Below are positions 51,332 to 64,000 of a stretch of 64,000 nt of DNA, piece by piece. The stretch's first letter is position 1. Every line of letters starts with the position of its first letter. A program made the translations under genes and the position numbers. The notes beneath the pieces were generated by a model. The model was given only the letters and a program-made list of their open reading frames with translations, was not told the origin of the DNA and did no database searches. This stretch comes from Sulfurimonas sp. (GTDB lineage: Bacteria; Campylobacterota; Campylobacteria; Campylobacterales; Sulfurimonadaceae). The DNA lies in assembly GCA_028687935.1 (NCBI GenBank), contig JAQTZE010000005.1:124001-188000 (forward strand), given 5' to 3'.

Positions 51332-52198
51332 TTATAAATTTAAGTTTTCTTTTATAAATTTTCCAATTTTGTCACTCATGTGCTCTATTTTGTAATACTT
51401 TTCACTCTCTATTAGATTTATTATGCTAGTAATTTGACCTAGGTCAAGAGTTTCTACGATAGGGACGCCAAAACGCTCAAATAGTTCGTTAAAATTTCTC
51501 GTATAGTCTTCTCTTTGGATATAAATTGGTCGTCCACCTGAAGCTAAAGAGTCTAAAACTGCTTGAGGTGATGCAGTGATTAATATGTCTGTTTTTTTGA
51601 TCATCGCTTCATATTCTTCAAATTCATGGTGTTTTTTGAATTTTTTCTTAAGCGAATCTTCGTAATCTAAAAAGTAGTAAAATCCGAGTTGCAACTCTGC
51701 GTTTAGATCTTCTATAAACGCAAGATTTTTTTCCAAATCTTTCTCATAATCATCATCACCAAAGAAATAAGCTATCTTTATCTCTTTTGGAACTTTTTCA
51801 AAAAATTCTTCACCAACTGCGTAGCCATTGCATATGCCTTCGCCATGAAGGTAGGGAGAGATAAGCAACTCATTTGGATCTTTGACATCATTTGCATCAT
51901 CGCTCACACGGATAAAAGTAGAAAAATATTGGCGCATATCAGCAAGCATGATAGGGTTCGCTTCTTCTGAGTCAAAGATAAGCTGATCTCCATGATGGGC
52001 TATTTGCGGGATATTGCGGACAACATCTATCCCCACACTTTTTGAGATACCGAAATCTTTTGCAACTTGTGCGATACGAAAATCAGAACAAAGCAGTGTG
52101 ATATCTACATCGTCCAAAGCACGGATGATAGCTGCAGCTCTTCTAAATCTATCAAGTCCAATACGGTGACCTGTGTGTACATAATAAAAAGTCTTCAT
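51332..52198 (-). CDS. Glycosyltransferase-like (GT-B fold) protein
   Basis: 288 residues. The start FYYVHTGHRIGLDRFRRAAA and the C-terminal DILITASPQAVLDSLASGGR resemble the two halves of MurG/PseG-like GT-B proteins, with a Gly-rich turn near the end for a nucleotide sugar. No catalytic assignment is possible. It contains an inverted pair of the AAACGCA word (51698-51722), so it belongs to the core; the accessory DNA begins just upstream of its start. Precedes petABC on the same strand. Confidence 0.55.
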   Translation of the reverse strand: MKTFYYVHTGHRIGLDRFRRAAAIIRALDDVDITLLCSDFRIAQVAKDFGISKSVGIDVVRNIPQIAHHGDQLIFDSEEANPIMLADMRQYFSTFIRVSDDANDVKDPNELLISPYLHGEGICNGYAVGEEFFEKVPKEIKIAYFFGDDDYEKDLEKNLAFIEDLNAELQLGFYYFLDYEDSLKKKFKKHHEFEEYEAMIKKTDILITASPQAVLDSLASGGRPIYIQREDYTRNFNELFERFGVPIVETLDLGQITSIINLIESEKYYKIEHMSDKIGKFIKENLNL

Positions 52199-52346
52199 CT
52201 ATTTACTGTCTCTCGCTGCAATTGTCATATCTAATATAGTTTGATAATACATATATAACCTTAAAATACTAATTTGTTGGGATTATACACAATATGAATA
52301 AAACTGTCTTATAAAATATGTATAATAAATGTTGAGAACAGTTTAC
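52199..52346. other. AT-rich junction between core and accessory DNA
   Basis: No gene. Holds the putative promoter of the 52198 gene and marks the change from core composition to AT-rich accessory DNA. A short similarity (CAATTGTCATA...ATATAG) to the complement of 53474-53492 was seen but is too weak to call a transposon end. Confidence 0.4.
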
Positions 52347-52380
52347 TTAAAGCTCAATAATGCGCATATTATTAAGCTTT
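52347..52380. terminator. Palindrome at the 3' end of the protease gene
   Basis: AAAGCT-C-AATAAT / ATTATT-A-AGCTTT with a GCGCAT loop; it includes the stop codon of the minus-strand protease gene. There is no T-run on that strand, so it may be an mRNA-end stabiliser rather than a terminator. Confidence 0.5.
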
Positions 52381-53265
52381 TCTTTCAACAACTCTCATAT
52401 CATTTTGATTTTCTACAATTTTCATAATTCCAGGAGAGCTTGACAACGAATGAATAAATGAATGATGTATTGACAAAACAATGTCTTGTAAGTCTTGATC
52501 GCTTTCTAAATCTATAATTTTAAGTCCAACTTCTTTACATTGTTCCAATGAAATATGCCTTGAGTGAGTTTTCATTTCAGAGTGATCAGCTAAAAACTCA
52601 ACAATTCTATCTATTTGCTCCACTTTTGTTACATCTCTATCAAACATACATTTTAATAGCCAATCTTTAACTATATCTTTAGACCATGCAATAGCTTTCT
52701 CGCATTCTCCAAGAAAAGTTGGATGATATTTTCCAATAATTGCTTGCCACAATGGTGTACTAGCAGGATCAGTTTTAATGGCTTTAACTGCATTTTCAAA
52801 TTCTTCAATTACACCTGTAGCAGGAATACCACCAAATTGTGGATCAATTGGTCCTAGACTAGAATGTTTACCCATTATAATTTCTTTAGTAGCACATGCT
52901 ATCATTGTTCCAGCAGACATTGCCAACTGTGGCACAATTGCTCTAATATCATTGTTAAACATAGTATGCAAATAATCTACTATTGATTCAGCAGCAGCCG
53001 TTTGACCGCCTGGTGTATGCAAAATTATATCTAAGCCTTTTTTTCTATCTAACCCATGAATTGTAGCCATTAAAGCATTTTTGTCAGCATCATTAATGGA
53101 TGTTTCAGAATATTCAGGATTTTGTAACCATCCAGAATAATAGGCTATTACGTTTCTGCCTGTTTTTTCAGATAATTTTTTTAGATATTTTTGACGAACT
53201 GTATCAAATGGATGCTTATGATCGCACAAGTTGATTTCATTTAGTATTTCATTCCAACCTGGCAT
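52372..53265 (-). CDS. SDH-family ClpP-fold serine protease
   Basis: 297 residues of the SDH/SppA-like (PF01972) group: IILHTPGGQTAAAESIV near 80 for the oxyanion hole, the probable nucleophile Ser in LAMSAGTMIACAT near 118, and SSLGPIDPQFGG near 136. No signal peptide or anchor, so a cytoplasmic protease is likely. Nine bases separate it from the 59-codon gene upstream. It lies in AT-rich accessory DNA next to the Tn7-like module and may be cargo. Substrate unknown. Confidence 0.8.
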   Translation of the reverse strand: MPGWNEILNEINLCDHKHPFDTVRQKYLKKLSEKTGRNVIAYYSGWLQNPEYSETSINDADKNALMATIHGLDRKKGLDIILHTPGGQTAAAESIVDYLHTMFNNDIRAIVPQLAMSAGTMIACATKEIIMGKHSSLGPIDPQFGGIPATGVIEEFENAVKAIKTDPASTPLWQAIIGKYHPTFLGECEKAIAWSKDIVKDWLLKCMFDRDVTKVEQIDRIVEFLADHSEMKTHSRHISLEQCKEVGLKIIDLESDQDLQDIVLSIHHSFIHSLSSSPGIMKIVENQNDMRVVERKA

Positions 53266-53454: not shown

Positions 53455-53613
53455 AACACACTCCCTTTACTATAATAATGACAAATTGTATGACATGTAT
53501 TATATATATAATATAAAAATAGCAAATTATATTCCATCATATAAGTTTCTAGTTACAAAACGAAATATAATTAATATAATAGAATGATAATACGAAGATT
53601 TATTTTAATATGC

Positions 53614-53630
53614 TATACTTATTCACCATG
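53614..53630 (+). promoter_or_regulatory. tnsA: tnsA promoter -10 with near-leaderless start
   Basis: Extended -10 TATGCTATACT (hexamer 53614-53619) lies only eight bases before ATG 53628 and no ribosome-binding site is present. The transcript would start at or next to the ATG. Confidence 0.5.
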
Positions 53631-54311
53631 AAAAATGCGCACAAAGAACCAATAACTTTTATTCAGCGTAAACTACAAAAGAACTATCGTTCTATCACAG
53701 GTCACTTCCCTAGTGTAAAAAATAATAAATCAATTCCTTTCGAATCAAAACTAGAATCTGCACTTTTTTTAAGCCTTGAGTTTGATGATGACGTTGAGTC
53801 ATACCTTGAACAACCACAGATAATTATCACTGATGATGAAAAAGAAAAACCTTATCATGCAGATTGCTTTATCAAGATGTTTGACGATACTAATCGCCGC
53901 AACACTATCGTTGAAGTAAAATACACCACTGATCTCAACAAAGAAGAAAACAAAGAGGATTACGAGAAAAAGTTTAAAGCCGCCACCATTGCGACGAACG
54001 CTATGGATATGGATTTCTTGGTTTATACGGAACTTTCCCACTCTGAAAAATATATATTCAATCTAGACTTTTTGTATAGGTATAAAACACAGCCTAGAGA
54101 AAGAAAATTCGACACTAAAATAAAAGACCTATTATCTAAAGCGCCTATATCTGCAATAGATATCGCCAAAAGCATCGGCACTAATCCAAATGATTACATA
54201 ATAGTTGCGAATGCTATTTGGGGACTTGTTGCTCACGGTGAGCTATCTACTGATTTAGAAAAAGAGCTAAATATGAATTCAATTATAGAGATAAATAATG
54301 GCAGTAATTAA
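53628..54311 (+). CDS. tnsA: TnsA-type transposon endonuclease
   Basis: 227 residues. Restriction-endonuclease fold with Glu in FESKLESALFL near 46, Asp in KPYHADCFIKM near 85 and the EVK triad end in NTIVEVKYT near 101; the C-terminal part is the winged-helix TnsA domain. In Tn7 this enzyme cuts the 5' ends so the element moves by cut-and-paste. I prefer ATG 53628 over an in-frame ATG at 53610 because the latter lies in the -10 region. Overlaps tnsB by 14 bases. Confidence 0.88.
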   Translation: MKNAHKEPITFIQRKLQKNYRSITGHFPSVKNNKSIPFESKLESALFLSLEFDDDVESYLEQPQIIITDDEKEKPYHADCFIKMFDDTNRRNTIVEVKYTTDLNKEENKEDYEKKFKAATIATNAMDMDFLVYTELSHSEKYIFNLDFLYRYKTQPRERKFDTKIKDLLSKAPISAIDIAKSIGTNPNDYIIVANAIWGLVAHGELSTDLEKELNMNSIIEINNGSN

Positions 54312-56175
54312 ACTAGATATCGGAACGCAAATTATATACAAGGATCAAAAGTATCAAATTAAAGGATACCCTTCATTAGACGAAGTGTTAATCAAGCTTA
54401 CTGAAAAACCGTACAATGAAAAAGTCCTGAAGGTCAGTACATTGATAAAAGAACCGAAGAATGCGAAGGAACAATCAAACGAACTGGTCGATATAGACGA
54501 TAAAGAGTTTGAAAAAGCTTTGGAAAAATATAAGATTATAGAACCTTTGTTGTCTTTAGAAAAGAGAACTGCCAAAGATGTAGAGGATATCGCTAAAAAA
54601 CATCAAAAAGGTATCGCTACGATATACAGGTGGTTAACTACCTACGAGACTTTTAACACTATCAGCTCACTTAGTCCGGCATATAAAAATTCCGGAGCCA
54701 AAGGTAAAAGCCGTTTAGATAAGTCCGTAGAAGCAATTATAGAATCTGTCATAGATGAATTCTACCTAACCAAACAGCAATATCCTCTATCAATTATATA
54801 TATGAAAATAGTTGAAAAATGTAATAACCTAGATTTGGAAGTTCCAAACATAAACACTATTAGAAATAGGATTAACACTCTTAATCCAAAAATAGTAGCC
54901 AAGAATCGTAAGGGCTTAAGCGTTAGAGATACCAGAGGTATGCCCGGTAAATACCCTGATGTAAAAATGCCGCTCGATGTTATACAAATCGACCACACTA
55001 AAGTAGATGTTATGTTAGTTGATGAAGAAACAAGAAAAAATATAGGAAGAGCAAATATTACCGTTGCTATAGACGTATATAGTCGTATGGTTTATGGATT
55101 TTATATATCCCTTGAAGCTCCTAGCTATTTTAGTGTAGGGCAAGCTCTTCTCAATGCCATACTTCCGAAAGATGATTTACTGAAAATGTACAATGTAACC
55201 GGCGAATGGCCGGTATTTGGTCTACCTCGTGCAGTCAGTATGGATAATGCAAAAGAGTTCAGGAGCAAAAGTTTACAAATGTTTTGTAGCGAATATAGAA
55301 TCAAAGACATCTATCGTCCGGTTGCTCGTAGTCATTTTGGCGGCATAATAGAGCGCCTAGTGGGCATTTCTATGAAAAAAACACATCTAATACCAGGCAC
55401 TACATTTTCAAGTGTGGAGAAAAAAGGAACTTATAATTCAGCCGAATATGCAGTTATGACCATTAGTGAACTTGAGCAATGGTATACGGATTTTATTATC
55501 AACATTTATCATAAAAGCGTCCACAGTACTATTCATATGACTCCTGAAGAAAAATTATATCAAGGGATGCTCGGCGTAGGAGACGGTACTATACCTTTTC
55601 TACCGACGGTCCCATCCAATACGCTTAAACTGAGGATGGCTCTTTTGCCTGCATCTGAACGTACGGTTCAAAAGAACGGTATTACTATTGATTACATCAC
55701 ATACTTTTCTGAAACTCTTCGAAAATGGATAATCCCTGCCCAATATAAAAAGCTCAATCAAAACTTGATATCGAATACAGTACTATGTAGGCGCGATCCA
55801 AGAGATATCAGCAAGATATATGTCTATGATCCTGATATAGATAACTACATAGAAGTTCCTTACGCCGACATTAAAAGACCTGCGATGAACATCAAAGAAC
55901 TTAGACAATCTATCGCAGAAGCAAAAAAAGAAGTTACCGGCAGAGAGCTAGAACAGCATGATATTTTTCAAGCACATAATAGACTATTTGAATATACTGA
56001 GAAAGCTAAAAGAGAACAAAAAACCGTACGCAGACAGATAAGTTCCAAAAAACATATGCAAAAAACCATGGACTATGAATCTAAAGTCTTAAAAAGTGAT
56101 GTGACTCTCAATAAAAAACATAAAGAGACATTTGAAGATGATGAGGACGGATATGAATACTATCCGGTAGGCTAA
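54298..56175 (+). CDS. tnsB: TnsB-type DDE transposase
   Basis: 625 residues: N-terminal HTH domains that bind transposon ends (DIAKKHQKGIATIYRWLTTY near 95), the RNase-H-like integrase core (about 215-400) with the DDE acids in VIQIDHTKVD, AVSMDNAKEF and GGIIERLVG, and a Mu-transposase C-terminal beta-barrel. All three acidic residues are present, so it should be active. Coupled to tnsA and followed by tnsC after one base. Confidence 0.92.
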   Translation: MAVIKLDIGTQIIYKDQKYQIKGYPSLDEVLIKLTEKPYNEKVLKVSTLIKEPKNAKEQSNELVDIDDKEFEKALEKYKIIEPLLSLEKRTAKDVEDIAKKHQKGIATIYRWLTTYETFNTISSLSPAYKNSGAKGKSRLDKSVEAIIESVIDEFYLTKQQYPLSIIYMKIVEKCNNLDLEVPNINTIRNRINTLNPKIVAKNRKGLSVRDTRGMPGKYPDVKMPLDVIQIDHTKVDVMLVDEETRKNIGRANITVAIDVYSRMVYGFYISLEAPSYFSVGQALLNAILPKDDLLKMYNVTGEWPVFGLPRAVSMDNAKEFRSKSLQMFCSEYRIKDIYRPVARSHFGGIIERLVGISMKKTHLIPGTTFSSVEKKGTYNSAEYAVMTISELEQWYTDFIINIYHKSVHSTIHMTPEEKLYQGMLGVGDGTIPFLPTVPSNTLKLRMALLPASERTVQKNGITIDYITYFSETLRKWIIPAQYKKLNQNLISNTVLCRRDPRDISKIYVYDPDIDNYIEVPYADIKRPAMNIKELRQSIAEAKKEVTGRELEQHDIFQAHNRLFEYTEKAKREQKTVRRQISSKKHMQKTMDYESKVLKSDVTLNKKHKETFEDDEDGYEYYPVG

Positions 56176-56176
56176 A

Positions 56177-57049
56177 ATGGAAGATAGAAGATTAACGACA
56201 GAAGCCAAAGAATACTTGGAAAAAAGTGCTCAAGAAAGAATAGCGTATTGCAATCAAGATAAATGGATAGGTTACGGTGCTGCAATGACCTTGCTGGAAC
56301 TGCTAGAAGATAAGTTCAACGAACCTACTCAACTTCGTCATGAGGGTTTACTGATTTACAGTGAATACAACAACGGCAAAACTGCAATTTTAAAAAAGTT
56401 TTACGATATGCACAAACTTCAGTTTGACCATATAAACGGCGAAGATGAGATGATACATGAAATTCCAATCATTTATCTTCAAGCTCCAACTTCACCTGAT
56501 GAAGGAAGACTATATAGTCGAATATTATCCGAATTGTGTGTCCCTCATAAACGCAATGAAAAAGTAATAGAAAAGGCAAGGCTTGTAAAACACTACCTTG
56601 ATAAACTGAACACCAAAATGATTTTGTTGGATGAAATACATAGTGCGTTAACGGGCAATCTCAACAAACAAAGGGCTTTTGTAGATGTGTTGAAACAACT
56701 AAGTAACCAACTCTCACTTAATATTATTTTGGCCGGAACTTTTGAAGCACACTCTGCACTCTCCATTAGAGGCGAGACAAACTCTAGATTCCCGTCTATA
56801 GAATTACCTATGTGGAGTAACGGTAAAAAATTTAGATCTTTTGTAGCTACGTACGAGACATGTTTACCGCTTAAAGAAGCTTCCAAGCTTGCAGACAACG
56901 AAGAAATAATAAATAAGCTTTTCTATGAATCAGAGGGTTTGATTGGCAAAACGGTGCGTTTGATAAAAAAAGCTGCAACCAAAGCAATAAAGTCCGGGAG
57001 GGAAAAAATCACATTAGAGGATATAGAGTACTTACCTACTCTAAAATGA
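56177..57049 (+). CDS. tnsC: TnsC/TniB-type AAA+ ATPase
   Basis: 290 residues with Walker A SEYNNGKTAILKK near 60 and Walker B KMILLDEIHSA near 152. These ATPases link the target selector to TnsAB and enforce target immunity. At 290 residues it is shorter than Tn7 TnsC (about 555) and closer in size to TniB and CAST TnsC. One base separates it from tniQ. Confidence 0.9.
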   Translation: MEDRRLTTEAKEYLEKSAQERIAYCNQDKWIGYGAAMTLLELLEDKFNEPTQLRHEGLLIYSEYNNGKTAILKKFYDMHKLQFDHINGEDEMIHEIPIIYLQAPTSPDEGRLYSRILSELCVPHKRNEKVIEKARLVKHYLDKLNTKMILLDEIHSALTGNLNKQRAFVDVLKQLSNQLSLNIILAGTFEAHSALSIRGETNSRFPSIELPMWSNGKKFRSFVATYETCLPLKEASKLADNEEIINKLFYESEGLIGKTVRLIKKAATKAIKSGREKITLEDIEYLPTLK

Positions 57050-57050
57050 T

Positions 57051-58226
57051 ATGTCTACCAAGCCTAGACAGACACGAAACACTGACTGGGTAGAAGATTA
57101 TAACTTCCTGATTACACCAAAACCACAAAAAGACGAACTGCTCAGTTCATGGCTAACGCGCGTTGCATTTGCTCACGGTATGACATTAAATAACTTTTTT
57201 GGCTATTTTGTACGACATGAAGGTCATGCTCTGACTCGAACAGATATAGATTTTCAATATAACCCATACCTTTTGGACGCTCTCTCCAAAAAAAGTAAAA
57301 TTGATATCAAAACTATTCAAAACCTTTCACTACGAAGTGAAGAAGGCTATCTTTTTGCTTGTAATGAGTGCTTATATCCTCCGGCACAAATCAGAAAGCT
57401 AGTAGATAGAAGAACTCATTTTGGATTGATGTATTGTCCAAAGTGTTTAGAAGAGGACGAACACCCATATTTTAGACAAGAGTGGCGTTATCTCTTTTCT
57501 AATGCATGTATCAAACATGGAATATATCTAAAAGATAGATGTGGAATATGTTTTGAGAGAATTAGGCTTAGAAAAATGCCTATAGATAATAAAATAATTT
57601 TTTGCCACAAATGTAAAAGAGACTTAAGACTAACAAGACCTATAAAAGTTTTAGAAGAACACTCTGAAGGATTAGAAGCTATATCATGGTTTCAAAATGG
57701 ACTAAAAAATGGTTACTTTGTCATTGACAATACAAAAGTTAGCTCTTTAGTGATATTTCAAGCATTCACACATCTTCGATATCTTATAAATGGACAAAAA
57801 AATCTTAAACTTGATAGTTTTTCAATGCTTAACAGCTATAAAGGATTATGCAAAAAACTACAGCATTATGATTCAAAAAAATGTGGACCAGTTTACAAAG
57901 ACTTCTTCTTAACTGCGATTGTGTATCATTTATTTCAAAACTATCCGAATAATCTTCAAAAATTTGCAGATGAAAATAATCTTACTTATAGGGATTTTAT
58001 ACATGGTTTTATAGATATACCGTTTTGGTACAAAAGTACAATTGACGGTATTATTCCAATGCAAAATACAGTTGGTAGAGATATTAGCAAGAGTGAAGTG
58101 ATTGGTGTCATAAATTATTTGAAACACTCAGGTATTAAAGTAACTCAAAAGAGTGTAGCGGAAATAGTTGGGTGTCATTTTAGTATTAATAAAACATTTA
58201 TCAGGATTTACAAACAAATAACGTAA
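57051..58226 (+). CDS. tniQ: TniQ/TnsD-family target selector
   Basis: 391 residues. The TniQ domain (about 15-160, KDELLSSWLTRVAFAHG) is followed by zinc-finger cysteines CNEC, CPKC, C..C (CGICFERIRL) and CHKC around 103-195, and a C-terminal helical part with an HTH-like segment (TQKSVAEIVGCHFSINKTF). The length lies between short TniQ and Tn7 TnsD (about 508), so it could read a DNA site itself or serve an RNA-guided complex; no cas genes are visible. The stop lies within repeats of a putative operator. Confidence 0.88.
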   Translation: MSTKPRQTRNTDWVEDYNFLITPKPQKDELLSSWLTRVAFAHGMTLNNFFGYFVRHEGHALTRTDIDFQYNPYLLDALSKKSKIDIKTIQNLSLRSEEGYLFACNECLYPPAQIRKLVDRRTHFGLMYCPKCLEEDEHPYFRQEWRYLFSNACIKHGIYLKDRCGICFERIRLRKMPIDNKIIFCHKCKRDLRLTRPIKVLEEHSEGLEAISWFQNGLKNGYFVIDNTKVSSLVIFQAFTHLRYLINGQKNLKLDSFSMLNSYKGLCKKLQHYDSKKCGPVYKDFFLTAIVYHLFQNYPNNLQKFADENNLTYRDFIHGFIDIPFWYKSTIDGIIPMQNTVGRDISKSEVIGVINYLKHSGIKVTQKSVAEIVGCHFSINKTFIRIYKQIT

Positions 58227-58300
58227 TATTTACGTAAATAACGTATATATTACTATTTATCATCATAATTATCGTTATTTAAGTAAAATAAATGTATTAT
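58216..58300. promoter_or_regulatory. Putative operator-promoter of the cargo cassette
   Basis: AAATAACG occurs directly at 58216-58223 and 58236-58243 (20 bases, two helical turns) and inverted at 58273-58280; a perfect dyad ACGTAA-TAT-TTACGT covers 58221-58235. A -10-like TATTAT at 58295-58300 lies six bases before ATG 58307, with the inverted copy over the -35 position. The small HTH protein encoded next is the obvious candidate regulator. Confidence 0.5.
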
Positions 58301-58306
58301 CCCGTT

Positions 58307-58540
58307 ATGGATTTTAAAAGCTTTGAGACGCTATTGAGCGATGTTGGATTAAATATTCAAGTTTTTTCAGAAAAAACAAATACTCCTGTACGCACTGTAC
58401 AAAATTGGTTTACACAAAGAAAAGCTAAAGTTACAAATGAACCGAAATGGGTTATCCCATATATTGAACTATATAAAGAAAATAAAAAACAAAAACACAT
58501 CATTGAATACTTAGAGGAAAAGCAAAATGAAAAAAATTAA
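58307..58540 (+). CDS. Small HTH DNA-binding protein
   Basis: 77 residues with a helix-turn-helix-like core (IQVFSEKTNTPVRTVQNWF) and a lysine-rich C-terminus. Probably the repressor of this cassette. ATG 58307 is preferred to an in-frame ATG at 58292, which falls in the promoter; neither has a ribosome-binding site and the mRNA may be leaderless. Its last codons overlap the next gene by 14 bases. Family not recognised precisely. Confidence 0.65.
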   Translation: MDFKSFETLLSDVGLNIQVFSEKTNTPVRTVQNWFTQRKAKVTNEPKWVIPYIELYKENKKQKHIIEYLEEKQNEKN

Positions 58541-59402
58541 AACATCTTTCTCTGGTCATGATAAGTTTGATTGCAAAATTGATTGGATTGTTAAAGGATT
58601 AGAGGCTTTTAATAATGACAAGAAAATATTATTATTATCAAACATAGAAAAAGGAATTGAGACTTTGGGTTTAGGAATTAATATGATTAAGTCATTAAAT
58701 CATTGGCTCAAGGTATTTGGTCTTATAAATGATAATGGCTTGACAGAGCTTGGACAAATGATTTTAGAGAAAGATCCATATTTAGAGAATACAGACATAC
58801 TTTGGATTCTACATTGGAATCTTGTTAAAAACAAAGAAAACACAACTCTATACTATATGTTTTTCAACCAAATATATCTTTATAGATTCACAAAAGAAGA
58901 TATATTTAACAATGTGAGTTTATGGTTAGAACAAAATGAAATAAAATTGTCTCCAAGCACATTAAAAGCGGACATAGATGTATTTTTAAGAATGTACAAC
59001 AACACTTCAAATAAAGATATCAGTATGAACTTATTATCGGACTTAAATATTTTAACTCAATTTAATGATAAATATATTCTAAACATTAATTCAACAGTTA
59101 AAATTTCTAATGATGTATTTATATATATACTCAACGACTACATACATACATTCAAAAAAGCCAATATAGAGTCTATATCAATTGATGATATTCAAAGAGG
59201 TGAAGTTAGTATTCAAAAAAGTTTATGTATGAGCGAGAATACTCTGTTTTCCAAGATAAATAATATTTCAAATATAACTAATGGAAGCATGTCTTACTCT
59301 GAAGCATCCGGAATAAGACAAATTTATATTAACAATACATTAAATAATCATGAATTATTAAGCAATATTTTAAACAAGGAGGTTGATAATGTTTTGCTAT
59401 AA
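58527..59402 (+). CDS. DUF4007-like protein
   Basis: 291 residues. The start KTSFSGHDKFDCKIDWIVKG matches the FSGHETF...W..K opening of DUF4007 (PF13182) proteins, which from memory occur beside PAPS-reductase-like and ATPase genes in DNA-phosphorothioation-type loci. The remainder is helical with a winged-helix look; no catalytic motif is evident, so a DNA-binding or scaffold role is plausible. GAGG precedes the ATG. Overlaps the HTH gene by 14 bases and the ATPase gene by 14. Confidence 0.72.
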   Translation: MKKIKTSFSGHDKFDCKIDWIVKGLEAFNNDKKILLLSNIEKGIETLGLGINMIKSLNHWLKVFGLINDNGLTELGQMILEKDPYLENTDILWILHWNLVKNKENTTLYYMFFNQIYLYRFTKEDIFNNVSLWLEQNEIKLSPSTLKADIDVFLRMYNNTSNKDISMNLLSDLNILTQFNDKYILNINSTVKISNDVFIYILNDYIHTFKKANIESISIDDIQRGEVSIQKSLCMSENTLFSKINNISNITNGSMSYSEASGIRQIYINNTLNNHELLSNILNKEVDNVLL

Positions 59403-62400
59403 GGATTATATTTCATTAAATAGTAAATTCAGTAAATCTACCAATATTGTATATGATGCTGAAAACTGCAAAGATTACATCATAACAACATCTTCAAAGA
59501 ATGTTCTAAAAATACTTTTTAAACAAGACTATCATAATTCTATTTCACTCATTGGCCCATTTGGGTGTGGTAAATCGTCACTATTGCTATATATCAATAC
59601 ATTACTTTCAAACAATGAATACAGTAAAAGCTGTTACGAACAATTAAACATTTCTGAGCCAAACATATATAATCAGCTTACTGCATTCACTAATAATAAG
59701 AAGTTTTTGAAAATCAAAATTGTTGGAGAACATACATCATTTAAATTACAACTAAAGAACTCGCTTCTGAAGATTAAAGAGCTTAAAACAACCAATGAAT
59801 ATCTCAATGAAAATGCAGAATATCAATTGAGCAAAACACTTGAATACATATCTAATGATATTATAAAAAGCAACTATACAGATGTTTTATTTTCAATAGA
59901 TGAGTTTGGTAAATTTATTGAATATAGCTTTGAAAACACTAATTCAAATGATATCTTTGATTTGCAAACATTATCAGAATATATTAACAAGTCTAACAAC
60001 TACAAGTTAATAGTATCTTTACATAAAGCTTTTAATGAATATACTCAAGGCAGTAATTCTCAAATATCCTATTCTGATTGGGATAAAATTCAAGGAAGAT
60101 TTGAGAATATTGTTTTTAAAGATGATTATTATGAAATGCTCAATATATTCAAAGAAACTATTTCATTAGACAATTCAACCCATATTCAAAAGTGCAGAAA
60201 CACTATTTCGGATATATGCACGGACAGCAGCTTTCAAGAAGATATCAATTCTTCTGAATTTAGAAGTCTTTTTGAAAAAATAATACCAATACATCCATAT
60301 ACTGCATTAGCTATAGCAGAAATATTTACAAAATACTTTCAAAACCAACGCTCTATCTATTCATTTATATTTTCTTCTGAGCCAAGTGCTTTTCAGGAAT
60401 TTATTTTTAAAAAACATGATAAGTATGAACTATATTCTTTAACAGAGCTATATGATTATATTGCATATTTATTGAAAGTTTATTCTATCTTGTTACCAGA
60501 CAGAGAGATATGGTACTTTTCCGAATACAGATTAAAAGATATAAGAGTTAAGAATCAAATTCAAATTGATATAATTAAAACTGTAGCCCTGATACATGCA
60601 TTCAAGCTAATTAATACCATTTCACCAAACAAAGAGCACATAGTATTATCTTTAATGGATAGATATTCAAAAAAAGAAATTTTAGATAACATCCTTTTAT
60701 TAGAAGAAAATAATATATTAATATTTCAAGAACAAAGTAAATCATTTTCCTTACTTGAAGATTCAAATATAGACATTAATAAAGAAATGAAAAAAATATT
60801 AGCACATGATGTTAATATTGATTATGAAATGAAACTCAATAGCTTTATAAGTGACAAATTTCTTGTTGCTAAAAGATATTTTGCAAAATTTGGAAGCAAA
60901 AGAGTTTTTGAGAAAAAGTATGTGTCCAAGAATACAAAAGTATTCACAGAAGCATATAAAATCTTTTTGGTGAATGAAATAGATATTACTAAGTATGCGA
61001 ATAATAATAGTAAGTCTATATTTATACCTCTCCGCAAAACTACAAAACTTTATGAATTGGTTGACAAGATTGAAGCACTTCATGTTATTAAAGATAACAA
61101 CAAAGAAAAGATGAGTATAGACACAAAAGATATCATTGATAATATGATATCTGATCATACACTTGCATTAGAGAATCTTCTACAAGAAAATTATCAAAAC
61201 GCTCTTATTTACTATCAGAACAAAAGCTTCAAATACTCTTCGCAAAACATACAAATTTTATTAAGTAATATAGCAGAAAACAATTATCCCGATACACCAA
61301 TGCTAAATAACTATACGCTAAATCATACTTTAGCAAATAGTGGGACAAATACATCAAATGTCAAAAAGCTATTTGAAAATCTTTTAAACAATTCAGATAA
61401 AGAAGAACTTGGAATTGACAAATATCCTGCGGAAAAGGCATTATATCTTTCTGTTATTAAGCCTGCTGGTATACACAAAATTATAAATGAGCAATATATA
61501 CTATGTAAACCAAGTGACTTAAATTTTCAACCTGTATGGAAATACATCAGTAAATATCTATCAAAAAGAAACAAAGTCACTGATTTAATCGTGGAACTTG
61601 AACAAGAACCTTTTGGTTTAGCTAGAACAAATGCTCTTTTTATGGTGTCTTTATTTATTATAATAAACAAAGACGCTATCAACCTGTTTAGAGATAAGAC
61701 ATATAAGTATGAGCTATCTTTAGATCTATTAATGAACATATGGAAAGCAACTGACAAGTATGAAATAAAGCTTATTAATCTAACATCATCGCAAAAATAT
61801 TTATTCAAAGCTTATTTGCAGATAACAACAGATATCACAGATTATACATATACAAAAGATAGTGTTGTGTCAATAATTAAAACACTCTATAGTAAATTTG
61901 ACATGCTGCCTAAATATGCAAAAAATACACAAAAAATATCTTCTGAAGCCATTAAACTCAGAAGATCGTTAAGCTCTATGAAGGAACCAACTGAAGCTTT
62001 TTTTGAAATGTTTCCTACTGCTCTTGGCTACGATAATATTGATTCGATTAATATAGATGAATTTGTAACAAAATTCAAAATAGCATTTAATGAAATTGCT
62101 CTATCATACAAAAATGAAATAATCTCAATTGAAAAACAAATTGTCAAAGTATTTCATTTGAGTAATAGTTCATTTCCTTACAACAATGGGTTAACAAAAC
62201 TAGCAGACAAATTATCTAAAGTCGAATCCTTTGACAGTGACACAAAAGCATTTATACGATGTTTTACATATTCAAATTCTTTAATTGAATTAATAGATAA
62301 CCTATGTGTTATTGTAATTCGTAAAAAACTTAGTGAATGTTTTGATAGTGATGTTATAGTTTTTAAAGATGAACTTTTTATATACGCAGAAAAAATGTTA

Positions 62401-62631
62401 TCTAAACTTGAGCTTATAGACATTGCAAATGAAGAACAAGATGTAAGAAAGATTTCTCTTTCTTCTTTAGAATCTAGTTTAAACAAAGTTATTTCTATAA
62501 ATAAATCTAAAATGGATACAATAAACAAAGACGTTTTAAAAATAAAAGATATTATTCCAGATTCATACACAAATGATGAAAAGCTATATCTTATATCTCA
62601 ACTATTAAATGAAGAATTAAAAAATGAATAA
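59389..62631 (+). CDS. Large P-loop ATPase of the cargo cassette
   Basis: 1080 residues. Walker A in SLIGPFGCGKSSLLLYI near 52-68 and Walker B in DVLFSIDEFGKFIEY near 163-177, then a long mostly helical body with no further domain I recognise. Size and layout recall BrxC/PglY-type BREX ATPases and other giant defence ATPases, but family membership is not proved. I place the start at ATG 59389, six bases after AAGGAGG, rather than TTG 59383. It overlaps the following gene by eight bases. Very AT-rich, no core-type AAACGCA word. Confidence 0.75.
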   Translation: MFCYKDYISLNSKFSKSTNIVYDAENCKDYIITTSSKNVLKILFKQDYHNSISLIGPFGCGKSSLLLYINTLLSNNEYSKSCYEQLNISEPNIYNQLTAFTNNKKFLKIKIVGEHTSFKLQLKNSLLKIKELKTTNEYLNENAEYQLSKTLEYISNDIIKSNYTDVLFSIDEFGKFIEYSFENTNSNDIFDLQTLSEYINKSNNYKLIVSLHKAFNEYTQGSNSQISYSDWDKIQGRFENIVFKDDYYEMLNIFKETISLDNSTHIQKCRNTISDICTDSSFQEDINSSEFRSLFEKIIPIHPYTALAIAEIFTKYFQNQRSIYSFIFSSEPSAFQEFIFKKHDKYELYSLTELYDYIAYLLKVYSILLPDREIWYFSEYRLKDIRVKNQIQIDIIKTVALIHAFKLINTISPNKEHIVLSLMDRYSKKEILDNILLLEENNILIFQEQSKSFSLLEDSNIDINKEMKKILAHDVNIDYEMKLNSFISDKFLVAKRYFAKFGSKRVFEKKYVSKNTKVFTEAYKIFLVNEIDITKYANNNSKSIFIPLRKTTKLYELVDKIEALHVIKDNNKEKMSIDTKDIIDNMISDHTLALENLLQENYQNALIYYQNKSFKYSSQNIQILLSNIAENNYPDTPMLNNYTLNHTLANSGTNTSNVKKLFENLLNNSDKEELGIDKYPAEKALYLSVIKPAGIHKIINEQYILCKPSDLNFQPVWKYISKYLSKRNKVTDLIVELEQEPFGLARTNALFMVSLFIIINKDAINLFRDKTYKYELSLDLLMNIWKATDKYEIKLINLTSSQKYLFKAYLQITTDITDYTYTKDSVVSIIKTLYSKFDMLPKYAKNTQKISSEAIKLRRSLSSMKEPTEAFFEMFPTALGYDNIDSINIDEFVTKFKIAFNEIALSYKNEIISIEKQIVKVFHLSNSSFPYNNGLTKLADKLSKVESFDSDTKAFIRCFTYSNSLIELIDNLCVIVIRKKLSECFDSDVIVFKDELFIYAEKMLSKLELIDIANEEQDVRKISLSSLESSLNKVISINKSKMDTINKDVLKIKDIIPDSYTNDEKLYLISQLLNEELKNE

Positions 62632-63481
62632 AAAAGAAATACATGTAATATCTGTATCTGGTGGAAAAGACAGTGCAGCACTAGCTATCTATTTGAAAGA
62701 AAAATATCCTAACAGAGAATTTGAGTATTTATTTTTTGATACAGAAGAAGAGCTAGAAGAGACATATAAATATTTAAATGAATTGGAGTCTAGACTAGGT
62801 ATAAAAGTACGAAGAGAATATCCAGCTAAATCTTTTAAAGAGCTACTTTTGGAACATAATGACTATTTGCCTTCTCCTACTGAACGATGGTGCACTCGTA
62901 AAATGAAGCTAGAAACATTTATGAAAATAATGAAAGAATATGCTGACTGTACTGTTTATAACTATGTAGGTATTCGAGCAGATGAAAATAGACAAGGCTT
63001 AATTCCTACAGAAGAAAATATAATTACTGTAATGCCATTTAAAGATGATGGTATTACATTAGATGATGTAAAAAGAATATTAAATGATTCAGGTCTAGGA
63101 CTACCAAAGTACTATGAGCCTATAAAAGACGAAAAATATGACATAGAATATTTTAGAAGTAGATCTGGATGTTATTTCTGTTTTTTTATGAGACAGATAG
63201 AATGGGTATGGCTATATGAGAAACATCCTGATGAATTTAAAAAAGCTATGGAATTTGAAAAATCTGGTTACTCATGGATACAAGACATGCCATTATCAGA
63301 GCTTATAAAACCGGCAAATATTGACAAAATCAAAATATCATACAAAAGAATGGAAGAAATTAAGAAAAAACAACAGATTAAAAATGGTACAATGTTTCAA
63401 GAAATGGATTTCATGTCTAAACACGATAAAATGATTGATGATATGGAAAAAGATCAGCTTTGCACGATGTGTACATTATAA
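62624..63481 (+). CDS. PAPS-reductase-family protein, DndC/BrxP-like
   Basis: 285 residues with the PP-loop ATP-pyrophosphatase motif ISVSGGKDSAALA near 9-21. Cysteines in ERWCTRKMKLE near 88, GCYFCFFMRQIEW near 185 and CTMC at the C-terminus could hold an Fe-S cluster, as in DndC and SspD that insert sulfur into the DNA backbone. Sulfate assimilation is unlikely from the context: it is coupled to the ATPase upstream and followed after 14 bases by a nuclease-like gene. No cysteine desulfurase gene is seen here. Confidence 0.8.
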   Translation: MNKKEIHVISVSGGKDSAALAIYLKEKYPNREFEYLFFDTEEELEETYKYLNELESRLGIKVRREYPAKSFKELLLEHNDYLPSPTERWCTRKMKLETFMKIMKEYADCTVYNYVGIRADENRQGLIPTEENIITVMPFKDDGITLDDVKRILNDSGLGLPKYYEPIKDEKYDIEYFRSRSGCYFCFFMRQIEWVWLYEKHPDEFKKAMEFEKSGYSWIQDMPLSELIKPANIDKIKISYKRMEEIKKKQQIKNGTMFQEMDFMSKHDKMIDDMEKDQLCTMCTL

Positions 63482-63495
63482 GCAGGAGGGTTGTA

Positions 63496-64000
63496 TTGTC
63501 AGATATATTCAAATATGGACATGAAGATTCTAATGATTTAACAATAATTGATCCAAGTACTTTTATGGAAAAAAAAGATATGTTAAAATTTTTTTCTGAA
63601 CAATTTATTATAAATCCATTTTCTTGGGAAGATATTGATGAAATAAATAAACACATTGATATTAATGATTTTGAAGAAATAAAATATATGCAATATGATT
63701 TAAATAAATATTCTGATGAATTAAAAGACATGCCAGATAATAGTGGTGGGCTTTATTTTTTTTATATTAAAAATCCAATAATACCTGATATGATTAATTA
63801 TCTCGTCTATATTGGTAGAGCAAAATATACAGAAGATCAAAATTTAAAGAAAAGATGTCGAGAATATTTTTATGATTATAAAAACGTCAAGGATGATGAT
63901 AGCGATAGGATTCAAACTGTTCGAAGTATGATTAAAAAATGGGGTCATTATTTATATTTAAAATATATAAAAATTGATAATAATAGTTTAATAGATTCTC
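63496..64000 (+). CDS. GIY-YIG nuclease-like protein (3' end outside window)
   Basis: 168 codons are visible before the window ends. A Glu/Asp-rich N-terminus of about 85 residues precedes GGLYFFYIKNP near residue 84 and LVYIGRAKYTEDQNLKKRC near 104, the GIY and YIG parts of a GIY-YIG nuclease, with Arg in a position fit for catalysis (KKRCREYF). The start is TTG 63496, since AGGAGGG lies five bases upstream. Last visible gene of the cassette; a candidate effector that cuts unmodified or foreign DNA. Confidence 0.7.
   Translation, partial: MSDIFKYGHEDSNDLTIIDPSTFMEKKDMLKFFSEQFIINPFSWEDIDEINKHIDINDFEEIKYMQYDLNKYSDELKDMPDNSGGLYFFYIKNPIIPDMINYLVYIGRAKYTEDQNLKKRCREYFYDYKNVKDDDSDRIQTVRSMIKKWGHYLYLKYIKIDNNSLIDS

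Follow-up and report, generated by a model that had tools for sequence, protein, structure and literature searches.

A seven-gene operon at the end of the window

The window analysed here (the whole stretch of 64,000 nucleotides; G000:C8:124001-188000 within the 2.58-Mb draft genome of a Sulfurimonas sp.) ends inside an operon of seven genes that, judged by its gene content, may well encode a variant of the Ssp immune systems, which mark DNA by phosphorothioation (PT). Five of the genes are in the window, where they appear as open reading frames (ORFs) in the same direction with the last still open at the window end, and the remaining 3.9 kb of the operon lie past 64,000 (positions beyond that point carry the window numbering on along the same contig; Table 1). 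An initial annotation of the window had cautioned that genes further on might alter its view of the cassette, as indeed they do: a DndB-like protein with a DGQHR motif and a GHKL ATPase are found there. The spacing it had given also holds, with overlaps of 14, 14 and 8 bases between the first four genes (the second on the assumption that SspC starts at ATG 59389, the next start after TTG 59383, with which the protein would have 1,082 amino acids (aa)) and a gap of 14 bases before the fifth, assuming a start at TTG 63496, TTG 63460 being possible as well. The GIY-YIG and DGQHR genes are then separated by 10 bases, and the DGQHR and GHKL genes overlap by 4.

Table 1. Features of the operon and of the element that carries it.
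Feature	Position	Strand	Basis and remarks
Operator-like repeats	58216..58245	none	AAATAACGTA twice, with an overlapping, partly palindromic stretch
Small HTH-like protein, probable operon regulator	58292..58540	+	ORF; Pfam below cut-off; relative in L021
SspB (DUF4007), DNA-binding subunit of the PT module	58527..59402	+	PADLOC SspB, PF13182
SspC ATPase	59389..62631	+	PADLOC SspC; Walker A GPFGCGKS; start TTG 59383 or ATG 59389
SspD, PAPS-reductase-family sulfur enzyme	62624..63481	+	PADLOC SspD; PP-loop SGGKDS
GIY-YIG nuclease (predicted), 198 aa	63496..64092	+	Conserved residues; fold match of a homologue
DndB-like DGQHR protein, 437 aa	64103-65416	+	PF14072; DGQHR motif
GHKL ATPase, 817 aa	65413-67866	+	GHKL motifs; fold match of the L021 model
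Left terminal repeat ATAGTTTGATAATA	52236..52249	+	Repeat pattern
TnsA-like	53610..54311	+	PF08722, 36.7 bits
TnsB-like transposase	54298..56175	+	Mu-transpos_C, 47 bits; PADLOC TnsB, 126 bits
TnsC-like (TniB)	56177..57049	+	PF05621, 178 bits
TniQ, 391 aa	57051..58226	+	PF06527, 79 bits
563-aa gene, convergent with the operon	67895-69586	-	No profile match
Right end, three AAAGTTTGAKAATR-like repeats	69597-69652	- (69597 and 69639)	Outermost holds the mnmG stop codon
mnmG	69644-71578	-	Target gene, 3' end

The modification half matches Ssp

On their PADLOC profile matches, three of the five window genes are a complete Ssp phosphorothioation module of the known kind. SspB scored 352.5 bits over profile positions 2-278 of 279 (and 211 bits with the DUF4007 family PF13182), SspC 492 bits over positions 2-1049 of 1054, and SspD 309.6 bits over positions 2-276 of 277, against 41.7 bits with BrxP and 14.6 bits with DndC; SspD also matches Pfam PAPS_reduct with 52 bits. 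The three near-full-length proteins are encoded together in one operon, and SspD keeps its PP-loop and SspC its Walker A motif. Because these genes are SspB, SspC and SspD, matched nearly end to end, the claim that the cassette is unlike Ssp fails for its modification half; the accompanying proposal of a sulfur-modification (PT) defence cassette with the GIY-YIG protein as its likely attacker is supported.

A GHKL ATPase with a predicted Hsp90/MORC/MutL-like fold

The new element of the operon is, from its motifs and the model of a close relative, a GHKL ATPase with an Hsp90/MORC/MutL-like fold. Its motifs are ExxxNxxDA, DxGxG and QGKYNMG, with the full set of ATPase patterns also found in 79 of the 80 relatives described below, and it scores 21.1 bits with Pfam HATPase_c_3, under the cut-off of 25. 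Its fold was studied on the Sulfurospirillum copy of locus L021, about 79-80% identical to that of the window (model from 32 sequences, mean predicted local distance difference test (pLDDT) 76.8, predicted template modelling score 0.58). Residues 38-474 of this model match Hsp90 (Z 20.8, 303 aligned) and, likewise, MORC3 (Z 18.1), MORC4 (16.1), MutL (16.1) and the ATPase regions of topoisomerases. The N-box, DxGxG, G2 box and GHKL+S5 fold (Z 15-21 to Hsp90, MORC, MutL and GyrB) thus place the protein in the GHKL superfamily. Foldseek on the same model also returns many Ig-like domains, given without ranges, which probably correspond to the strand-rich part modelled beyond residue 540. PADLOC returned nothing for the operon's GHKL protein at E 1 except Cas2a (E 0.008) and nothing for the L021 copy at E 0.5, and a sequence search of the PDB gave no match. 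Among the matches listed for open-access PubMed Central, preprints excluded, we found no report of SspBCD joined with a GHKL/Hsp90-like ATPase.

The GIY-YIG and DGQHR pair

The predicted GIY-YIG nuclease is recognized by conserved residues and by the fold of a homologue. Its own Pfam GIY-YIG match lies below the cut-off (E 0.087) and a PDB sequence search gave no match, but 13 homologues share the GIY/YIG tyrosines and glycine plus R, E and N residues, and an alignment with 6 of the 13 finds these residues in the window protein; with both strands and all three residues present, it falls within the GIY-YIG superfamily. A homologue's model (mean pLDDT 73.5) matches the UvrC GIY-YIG domain over 86 residues with a root-mean-square deviation of 2.1 and a Z of 8.8, its best, near values that the tool calls common for unrelated models. 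T4 EndoII, Eco29kI and Hpy188I are further top matches; 9 of the 15 best fold rows are titled GIY-YIG, and 5 more (EndoII, Hpy188I, PD-T4-3) we take to be members of the superfamily.

The neighbouring protein belongs to the DndB family, scoring 90.8 bits with Pfam DndB PF14072 (cut-off 29.1) and bearing the DGQHR motif. Judged by sequence, its DGQxR motif is shared with the sensor half of SspE, in which a single active protein combines a nickase with a DGQQR GTPase domain and GTP hydrolysis is the switch (PMC13251355). By analogy, the DGQHR and GIY-YIG pair looks like the SspE idea split over two genes, with a different nuclease.

The GHKL ATPase is linked to Ssp across many phyla

A scan of 84,980 genomes gave 388 relatives of the GHKL ATPase, of which the best 80 (45-79% identity) were analysed with flanks of 10 kb at most per locus. 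By their record titles these loci span Bacteroidota, Campylobacterota, Pseudomonadota, Poribacteria, Ignavibacteria, Acidobacteria, Planctomycetes, Gemmatimonadota, Chloroflexi and others. SspC and SspD lie near the GHKL gene, which occurs in both orientations relative to ssp, in 74/80 loci, with SspB as well in 68/80. In the remaining six (L034, L037, L044, L061, L062 and L077) the contig ends about 2 kb or less from the gene on at least one side, and three of these cut contigs (L037, L044 and L061) still hold GIY-YIG and DGQHR. Whether the genes recur together had been raised as a question by the initial annotation, and they do: in 12/74 loci, SspC, SspD and the ATPase are accompanied by GIY-YIG and DGQHR proteins related to those encoded in this operon. 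Plasmids gave seven records with a GHKL match, and all three at 80% cover or more adjoin DUF4007-SspC-SspD (a weak match, H6, was left out of the flank comparison). Tree distances of the ATPase agree with the SspC, SspB and SspD distances (Mantel r 0.65, 0.66 and 0.53; 66 sequences, the window's included), where the highest values among 999 permutations were 0.16, 0.14 and 0.19.

More distant GHKL relatives (23-38% identity; L013-L015, L017, L018 and L194-L198) served as a control, and SspB, SspC or SspD was found in 0/10 of their flanks. Some have other neighbours: L018 (7900-12965) adjoins a cytosine methylase and a MutH-type nuclease, L015 (6477-12682) adjoins an annotated cytosine methylase, and L197 (7709-12460), as read from its sequence, adjoins a cytosine methylase and a MutH- or Vsr-like nuclease. 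ParaMORC ATPases are described in such methylase settings (PMC2292703). Separately, a contig filed as viral (L193, 8125-12442) holds GIY-YIG, DGQHR and GHKL ATPase genes in a row, with no Ssp genes in the 16.7 kb examined, the contig stopping 4.2 kb past the gene.

Accessory modules are exchanged on the Ssp-GHKL backbone

Between Ssp and GHKL the gene content varies. A recognised module occurs in 69/74 loci and a DUF262/DGQxR-type protein in 45/74 (each locus counted once), where several module profiles were built from clusters of the same loci in which they were counted. GIY-YIG with DGQHR, other families of both included, accounts for 19/74; GIY-YIG with a second, MzaB-like GHKL protein for 11/74 (one shared with the former class; one further locus has the second protein without GIY-YIG), the single GIY-YIG gene of L056 possibly counting in two classes; and DUF262 with a protein kinase for 10/74. 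A histidine-kinase-like GHKL protein is found in 9/74, in 8 of them with a regulator-like partner (one shared), DUF262 with SIR2 in 8/74 (one shared), an AAA+C9 protein in 5/74, three of them with a PIN-like gene, and DGLQR with a HEPN-like gene in 3/74, where the terms HEPN-like, PIN-like and regulator-like go back to motifs or weak matches. SspE-like proteins occur in 2/74 (one shared), with PADLOC confirming SspE in L060 only (731 bits), and DUF262 or DGQHR has no recognised partner in 5/74.

The nearest backbone relatives of the window's operon, L021-L023 (GHKL 73-79% and SspD 73-79% identical), carry DGLQR and HEPN-like genes, and the window's DGQHR (43%) and GIY-YIG (39%) proteins are nearest to Bacteroidota copies. 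Because the closest backbones carry another pair and the window's pair is nearest to that of another phylum, the accessory pair has been exchanged on a related backbone, and by these sequence comparisons the genes between Ssp and GHKL are swappable.

In an Acinetobacter baumannii locus (L204, 1-15094), SspBCD is accompanied by a histidine-kinase-like gene and its unnamed neighbour, with endonuclease/transposase genes arranged in a Tns-like order alongside; this locus may be relevant to the missing partner mentioned in PMC12421847.

The ATPase and SspFGH as proposed alternatives

No operon protein matched the PADLOC profile of SspE, which detects that protein in L060, nor those of SspF, SspG and SspH, although the library detects SspF and SspG in genomes G229 and G365 and SspH in G229; DndFGH profiles gave no match among operon proteins either. 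Full identity with a named system, by which the initial annotation would have had its proposal refuted, was not found in PADLOC 2.0.0 (2023). Within the limited flanks of the 80 GHKL loci, SspF, SspG or SspH was found in 0/80 at E 1e-5, using profiles built partly from loci in which the proteins were then seen, the PADLOC matches being independent of them. Within the phylum, G195 (L021) has SspBCD, DGLQR, a HEPN-like gene and GHKL, and G365 (L155) has SspBCD and SspFGH (PADLOC SspF 368 bits, SspG 323 bits) together with relatives of the DGLQR protein (227 bits) and, weakly, of the HEPN-like one (62 bits). G229 likewise carries SspFGH, and G023, which carries an AAA+PIN-like set, has SspD 80% and SspC 53% identical to the window's, yet no GHKL gene. 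Similarly, an Agrobacterium SspC that occurs with SspFGH is 65% identical to an Ensifer SspC that occurs with GHKL.

In a tree of 85 SspC sequences, the 10 without GHKL are scattered, with 8 changes (shuffled mean 9.7, minimum 8); these 10, a non-random set, are eight plasmid and three Campylobacterota loci minus L202, in which SspC is in pieces, the plasmid loci being hand-picked among the 60 listed of 69 records. FtsK/SpoIIIE (SspH-like) genes occur in 4/8 of the picked plasmid loci. From these comparisons we infer that GHKL and SspFGH are restriction-side alternatives.

Proposed mechanism and alternative explanations

The gene content, the motifs, the predicted folds of relatives, the linkage and the exchange of pairs are observed. 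From these and from analogy with characterised systems we favour, with moderate confidence, a seven-gene variant Ssp (PT) immune operon in which the GHKL ATPase would take the place of SspFGH and a DGQHR-gated GIY-YIG nuclease would attack unmarked DNA; the likelihoods attached to this and to the readings below are not mutually exclusive. By homology to the characterised module, SspB, SspC and SspD, with a cysteine desulfurase encoded elsewhere in the genome, would place single-stranded PT marks on the cell's own DNA. The ATPase would then act on the restriction side as an ATP-driven, Hsp90/MORC/MutL-like machine, filling in one protein the role of SspFGH; it may engage DNA and license the attack. 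DGQHR and GIY-YIG would together form a ‘split SspE’, a nucleotide-gated sensor and a cutter of unmarked invader DNA. This pair would be a plug-in, since its place on other Ssp-GHKL backbones is taken by partners of the SIR2, protein-kinase, HEPN-like, PIN-like or histidine-kinase-like kinds. GHKL proteins such as MutL and MORC act as ATP-driven clamps in concert with nucleases and epigenetic marks, and the ATPase might stay constant while its partners change because a DNA-engaging clamp would license exchangeable effectors.

A wider version of this reading, which is possible if somewhat short of probable, is that the operon represents a new branch of PT immunity with one MutL/MORC-like GHKL protein as a universal licensing engine replacing SspFGH and a plug-in attack socket, which would take DNases, RNases, enzymes that consume nicotinamide adenine dinucleotide, kinases and two-component-like pairs. 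A survey of 2,678 sspBCD occurrences found 196 with sspFGH, 199 with sspE and 36 more with both (PMC8092258), leaving most Ssp modules without a known partner. If true, the GHKL branch would explain a share of the many sspBCD loci without a known partner, and the ATPase with its exchangeable pairs, the histidine-kinase-like ones included, offers concrete and testable Ssp partners. PT immunity would then be a platform with exchangeable effectors, and its MutL/MORC-type ATPase would cooperate with a mark on the DNA backbone in the way proposed for its relatives and methylation.

Several points weigh against the proposal that the ATPase licenses restriction by the DGQHR and GIY-YIG pair. The ATPase could serve modification instead, and DndB-like proteins could act only as repressors. 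SspC gave no match to a strict Walker B pattern, and a strict PP-loop pattern is missing in 9/74 SspD copies of related loci. The operon holds no sspA; other parts of the genome encode PF00266 aminotransferase/desulfurase-family proteins (top scores 286 and 249 bits, subfamilies not told apart), an SspA-like gene lies nearby in 26/74 related loci, and in Vibrio anguillarum FF-93 iscS is described as serving with sspBCD (PMC8092258). For GIY-YIG the fold match comes from a homologue, Foldseek alone giving it only weakly (E 0.11), and 5/74 loci have no recognised module. The figure of 74/80 describes a close clade only, because the 80 are the best-scoring relatives, and the distant control is weaker than its count because four of its ten contigs (L017, L195, L196 and L198) are also cut, ending less than 2.5 kb from the gene. 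Agreement between GHKL and Ssp trees (0.53-0.66, uncorrected for shared host ancestry) is lower than that within SspB/C/D (0.74-0.95). Most Ssp loci lack the ATPase: a close relative occurs in 3/69 plasmid records with an SspD-like match and, among 397 Campylobacterota genomes (87 with an SspD profile match, strong at 298 bits or more in 5, the next at 97 bits), in two of the five with strong SspD. Finally, the SspFGH-like comparison loci are few and hand-picked, and the HEPN-like match of L155 is weak at 62 bits.

The main rival, which we consider unlikely, would put the ATPase on the modification side, as a MutL/MORC-like clamp that helps SspB-C to find or open PT sites and leaves the pairs to restrict alone. 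That GHKL stays constant across very different effector pairs, is present in the 5/74 loci without a recognised pair and has a tree that follows SspB and SspC would fit such a role, but close SspBCD relatives do without it (G023; Agrobacterium versus Ensifer), it was found together with SspFGH in none of the 80 loci, and some of its distant relatives stand in restriction-modification settings, with cytosine methylases and, in L018, a MutH-type nuclease.

We also regard as rather doubtful a regulatory or abortive-infection mechanism, partly compatible with the split-SspE reading, in which DGQHR is a DndB-type negative regulator and GIY-YIG a toxic nuclease freed on infection, so that PT marks are sensor input only and the cell dies without selective cutting of phage DNA. 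SIR2, HEPN-like and PIN-like partners occupy the same place elsewhere, and SIR2, HEPN and PIN are kinds known as suicide effectors. DndB itself has been proposed as a negative regulator of phosphorothioation (PMC12839542). Yet an HTH-like protein and operator-like repeats are already present in the operon, and in SspE the DGQQR GTPase domain and the nickase form a single active protein (PMC13251355). Mere coincidence in a defence island, that is an Ssp module and an unrelated GIY-YIG/DGQHR/GHKL restriction system sharing one Tn7-like element, is disfavoured and very improbable, for although such elements bear many unrelated defence genes (PMC8649781) and L193 has the three genes without Ssp, linkage holds in 74/80 loci over many phyla and in both orientations, the genes are spaced by a 10-base gap and a 4-base overlap, and the L193 contig ends 4.2 kb past the gene.

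Regulatory region

The operator-like region that the initial annotation had placed ahead of the cassette is real, with two perfect 10-nucleotide direct repeats of AAATAACGTA (58216-58225 and 58236-58245, 20 nucleotides apart) and a 13-nucleotide inverted repeat, 92% complementary with a 5-base loop. Of the leading gene described there as HTH the ORF stands, but an HTH domain falls below all Pfam cut-offs; the protein has a single relative in the 80 related loci (37% over 71 aa, in L021) and probably regulates the operon. A promoter scan was uninformative (92 matches against 83.3 expected), and the window gave no matches to Rfam families or tRNAs.

A Tn7-like element carries the operon

The surrounding genes and repeats identify the operon as the cargo of a Tn7-like element, 17.4 kb long and inserted at the 3' end of mnmG: TnsA, TnsB, TnsC, TniQ, terminal repeats and a fixed site are all found. 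The repeat AAAGTTTGAKAATR, whose pattern was derived from the element's ends and their relatives, occurs at one mismatch or fewer at only three sites in 76 kb, at 52236 (+), 69597 (-) and 69639 (-), and because the terminal repeats lie only there the element spans about 52,236-69,652. Among 30 mnmG loci of the genus (own included), a homologue of 51332-52198 is directly next to mnmG in 15 and that of the next gene in 3, the 563-aa gene is there in 3 (own included) and something else or a contig end in 9; empty sites in relatives of the genus together with the terminal repeats define the element. The outermost repeat, 69639-69652 (AAAGTTTGATAACA), contains the stop codon of mnmG, so that the end of this target gene seems to come from the element itself.

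The 563-aa gene has matches, some broken, in 28/397 Campylobacterota genomes; it adjoins mnmG in 17/20 loci examined (L133-L151 among them), with differing neighbours on the other side, and lies directly beside TniQ in 3/20. According to PMC10293859, TniQ proteins longer than 400 aa are regarded as choosing their targets themselves, whereas small ones would depend on a separate selector. Because the TniQ here has only 391 aa, the 563-aa protein is a candidate for a new selector that directs Tn7-like elements to mnmG. Its identification as TnsE was rejected, with no Pfam match and no PDB match using a two-sequence profile. In PHROGs, neither this protein nor the GHKL, GIY-YIG and DGQHR proteins had a match at E 0.01.

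Inside the left end of the element lies an SDH/ClpP-like serine protease gene (52372-53265), complete only in the own genome among 60 of the genus, with one other weak match. We rejected this gene as chromosomal flank, because what comes after mnmG in relatives is the homologue of 51332-52198.

Further elements of this Tn7-like family bear Ssp in G195 and G229. The G229 element (L154, 598-19999), in another family of the order, bears SspBCD-SspFGH. One survey of what Tn7-like elements transport has 14 listings of DND; its main text, as far as available, gave no match for the word Ssp (PMC8649781).

Comparison with known systems

That the cassette matches none of Dnd, Ssp and BREX type 4, as initially stated, holds for Dnd and BREX and not for the modification half of Ssp. 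Dnd systems (DndABCDE with DndFGH, DndI or PbeABCD) share a DndB-family protein with the operon, which has neither DndD nor DndE and a sulfur enzyme with only 14.6 bits to DndC. BREX type 4 (BrxC, PAPS reductase/BrxP, DUF4007, PglZ, BrxL) has a homologous DUF4007 protein, BrxC-type ATPase and PAPS-reductase domain, but PglZ and BrxL gave no match among the genes between TniQ and mnmG, and the sulfur enzyme scores 310 bits with SspD against 42 with BrxP. Of the genes that the initial annotation had suggested looking for past 64 kb (pglZ, brxL and dndBDE), the extension yielded a DndB-like one, and PglZ, BrxL, DndD and DndE were not found. The Dnd and BREX readings were rejected on gene content, and PbeABCD was rejected from descriptions of PbeA-D, no Pbe profile being searched by name.

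The MORC/paraMORC ATPases found in restriction-modification operons (Iyer et al. 2008, PMC2292703), like the HEF_HK two-component-like elements (PMC8011034), similarly place a GHKL ATPase beside modification genes and nucleases; here the modification would be phosphorothioation, and the clade, not assigned to paraMORC1-5, is tied to SspBCD. MORC proteins proper are marked by a GhXhhpXXRhl motif within their S5 domain (PMC2292703). SspABCD-SspE shares with the operon SspBCD, a DGQxR protein and a nuclease, but SspE is one protein with a DUF1524 nickase domain, whereas the operon has two genes, a GIY-YIG nuclease and, in addition, the GHKL ATPase. SspABCD-SspFGH of Vibrio anguillarum FF-93 likewise has SspB, SspC and SspD; sspA may be dispensable in the operon, as IscS serves in FF-93, and in Campylobacterota the accessory pairs of an SspFGH locus (L155) and a GHKL locus (L021) are related to each other. 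In place of SspF, SspG and SspH, the operon has a single GHKL ATPase, DGQHR and GIY-YIG. Judging from these comparisons, the restriction half (GIY-YIG, DGQHR and GHKL) matches no set among those testable; a known modification module is joined to a probable restriction backbone that is undescribed, recurrent and modular.

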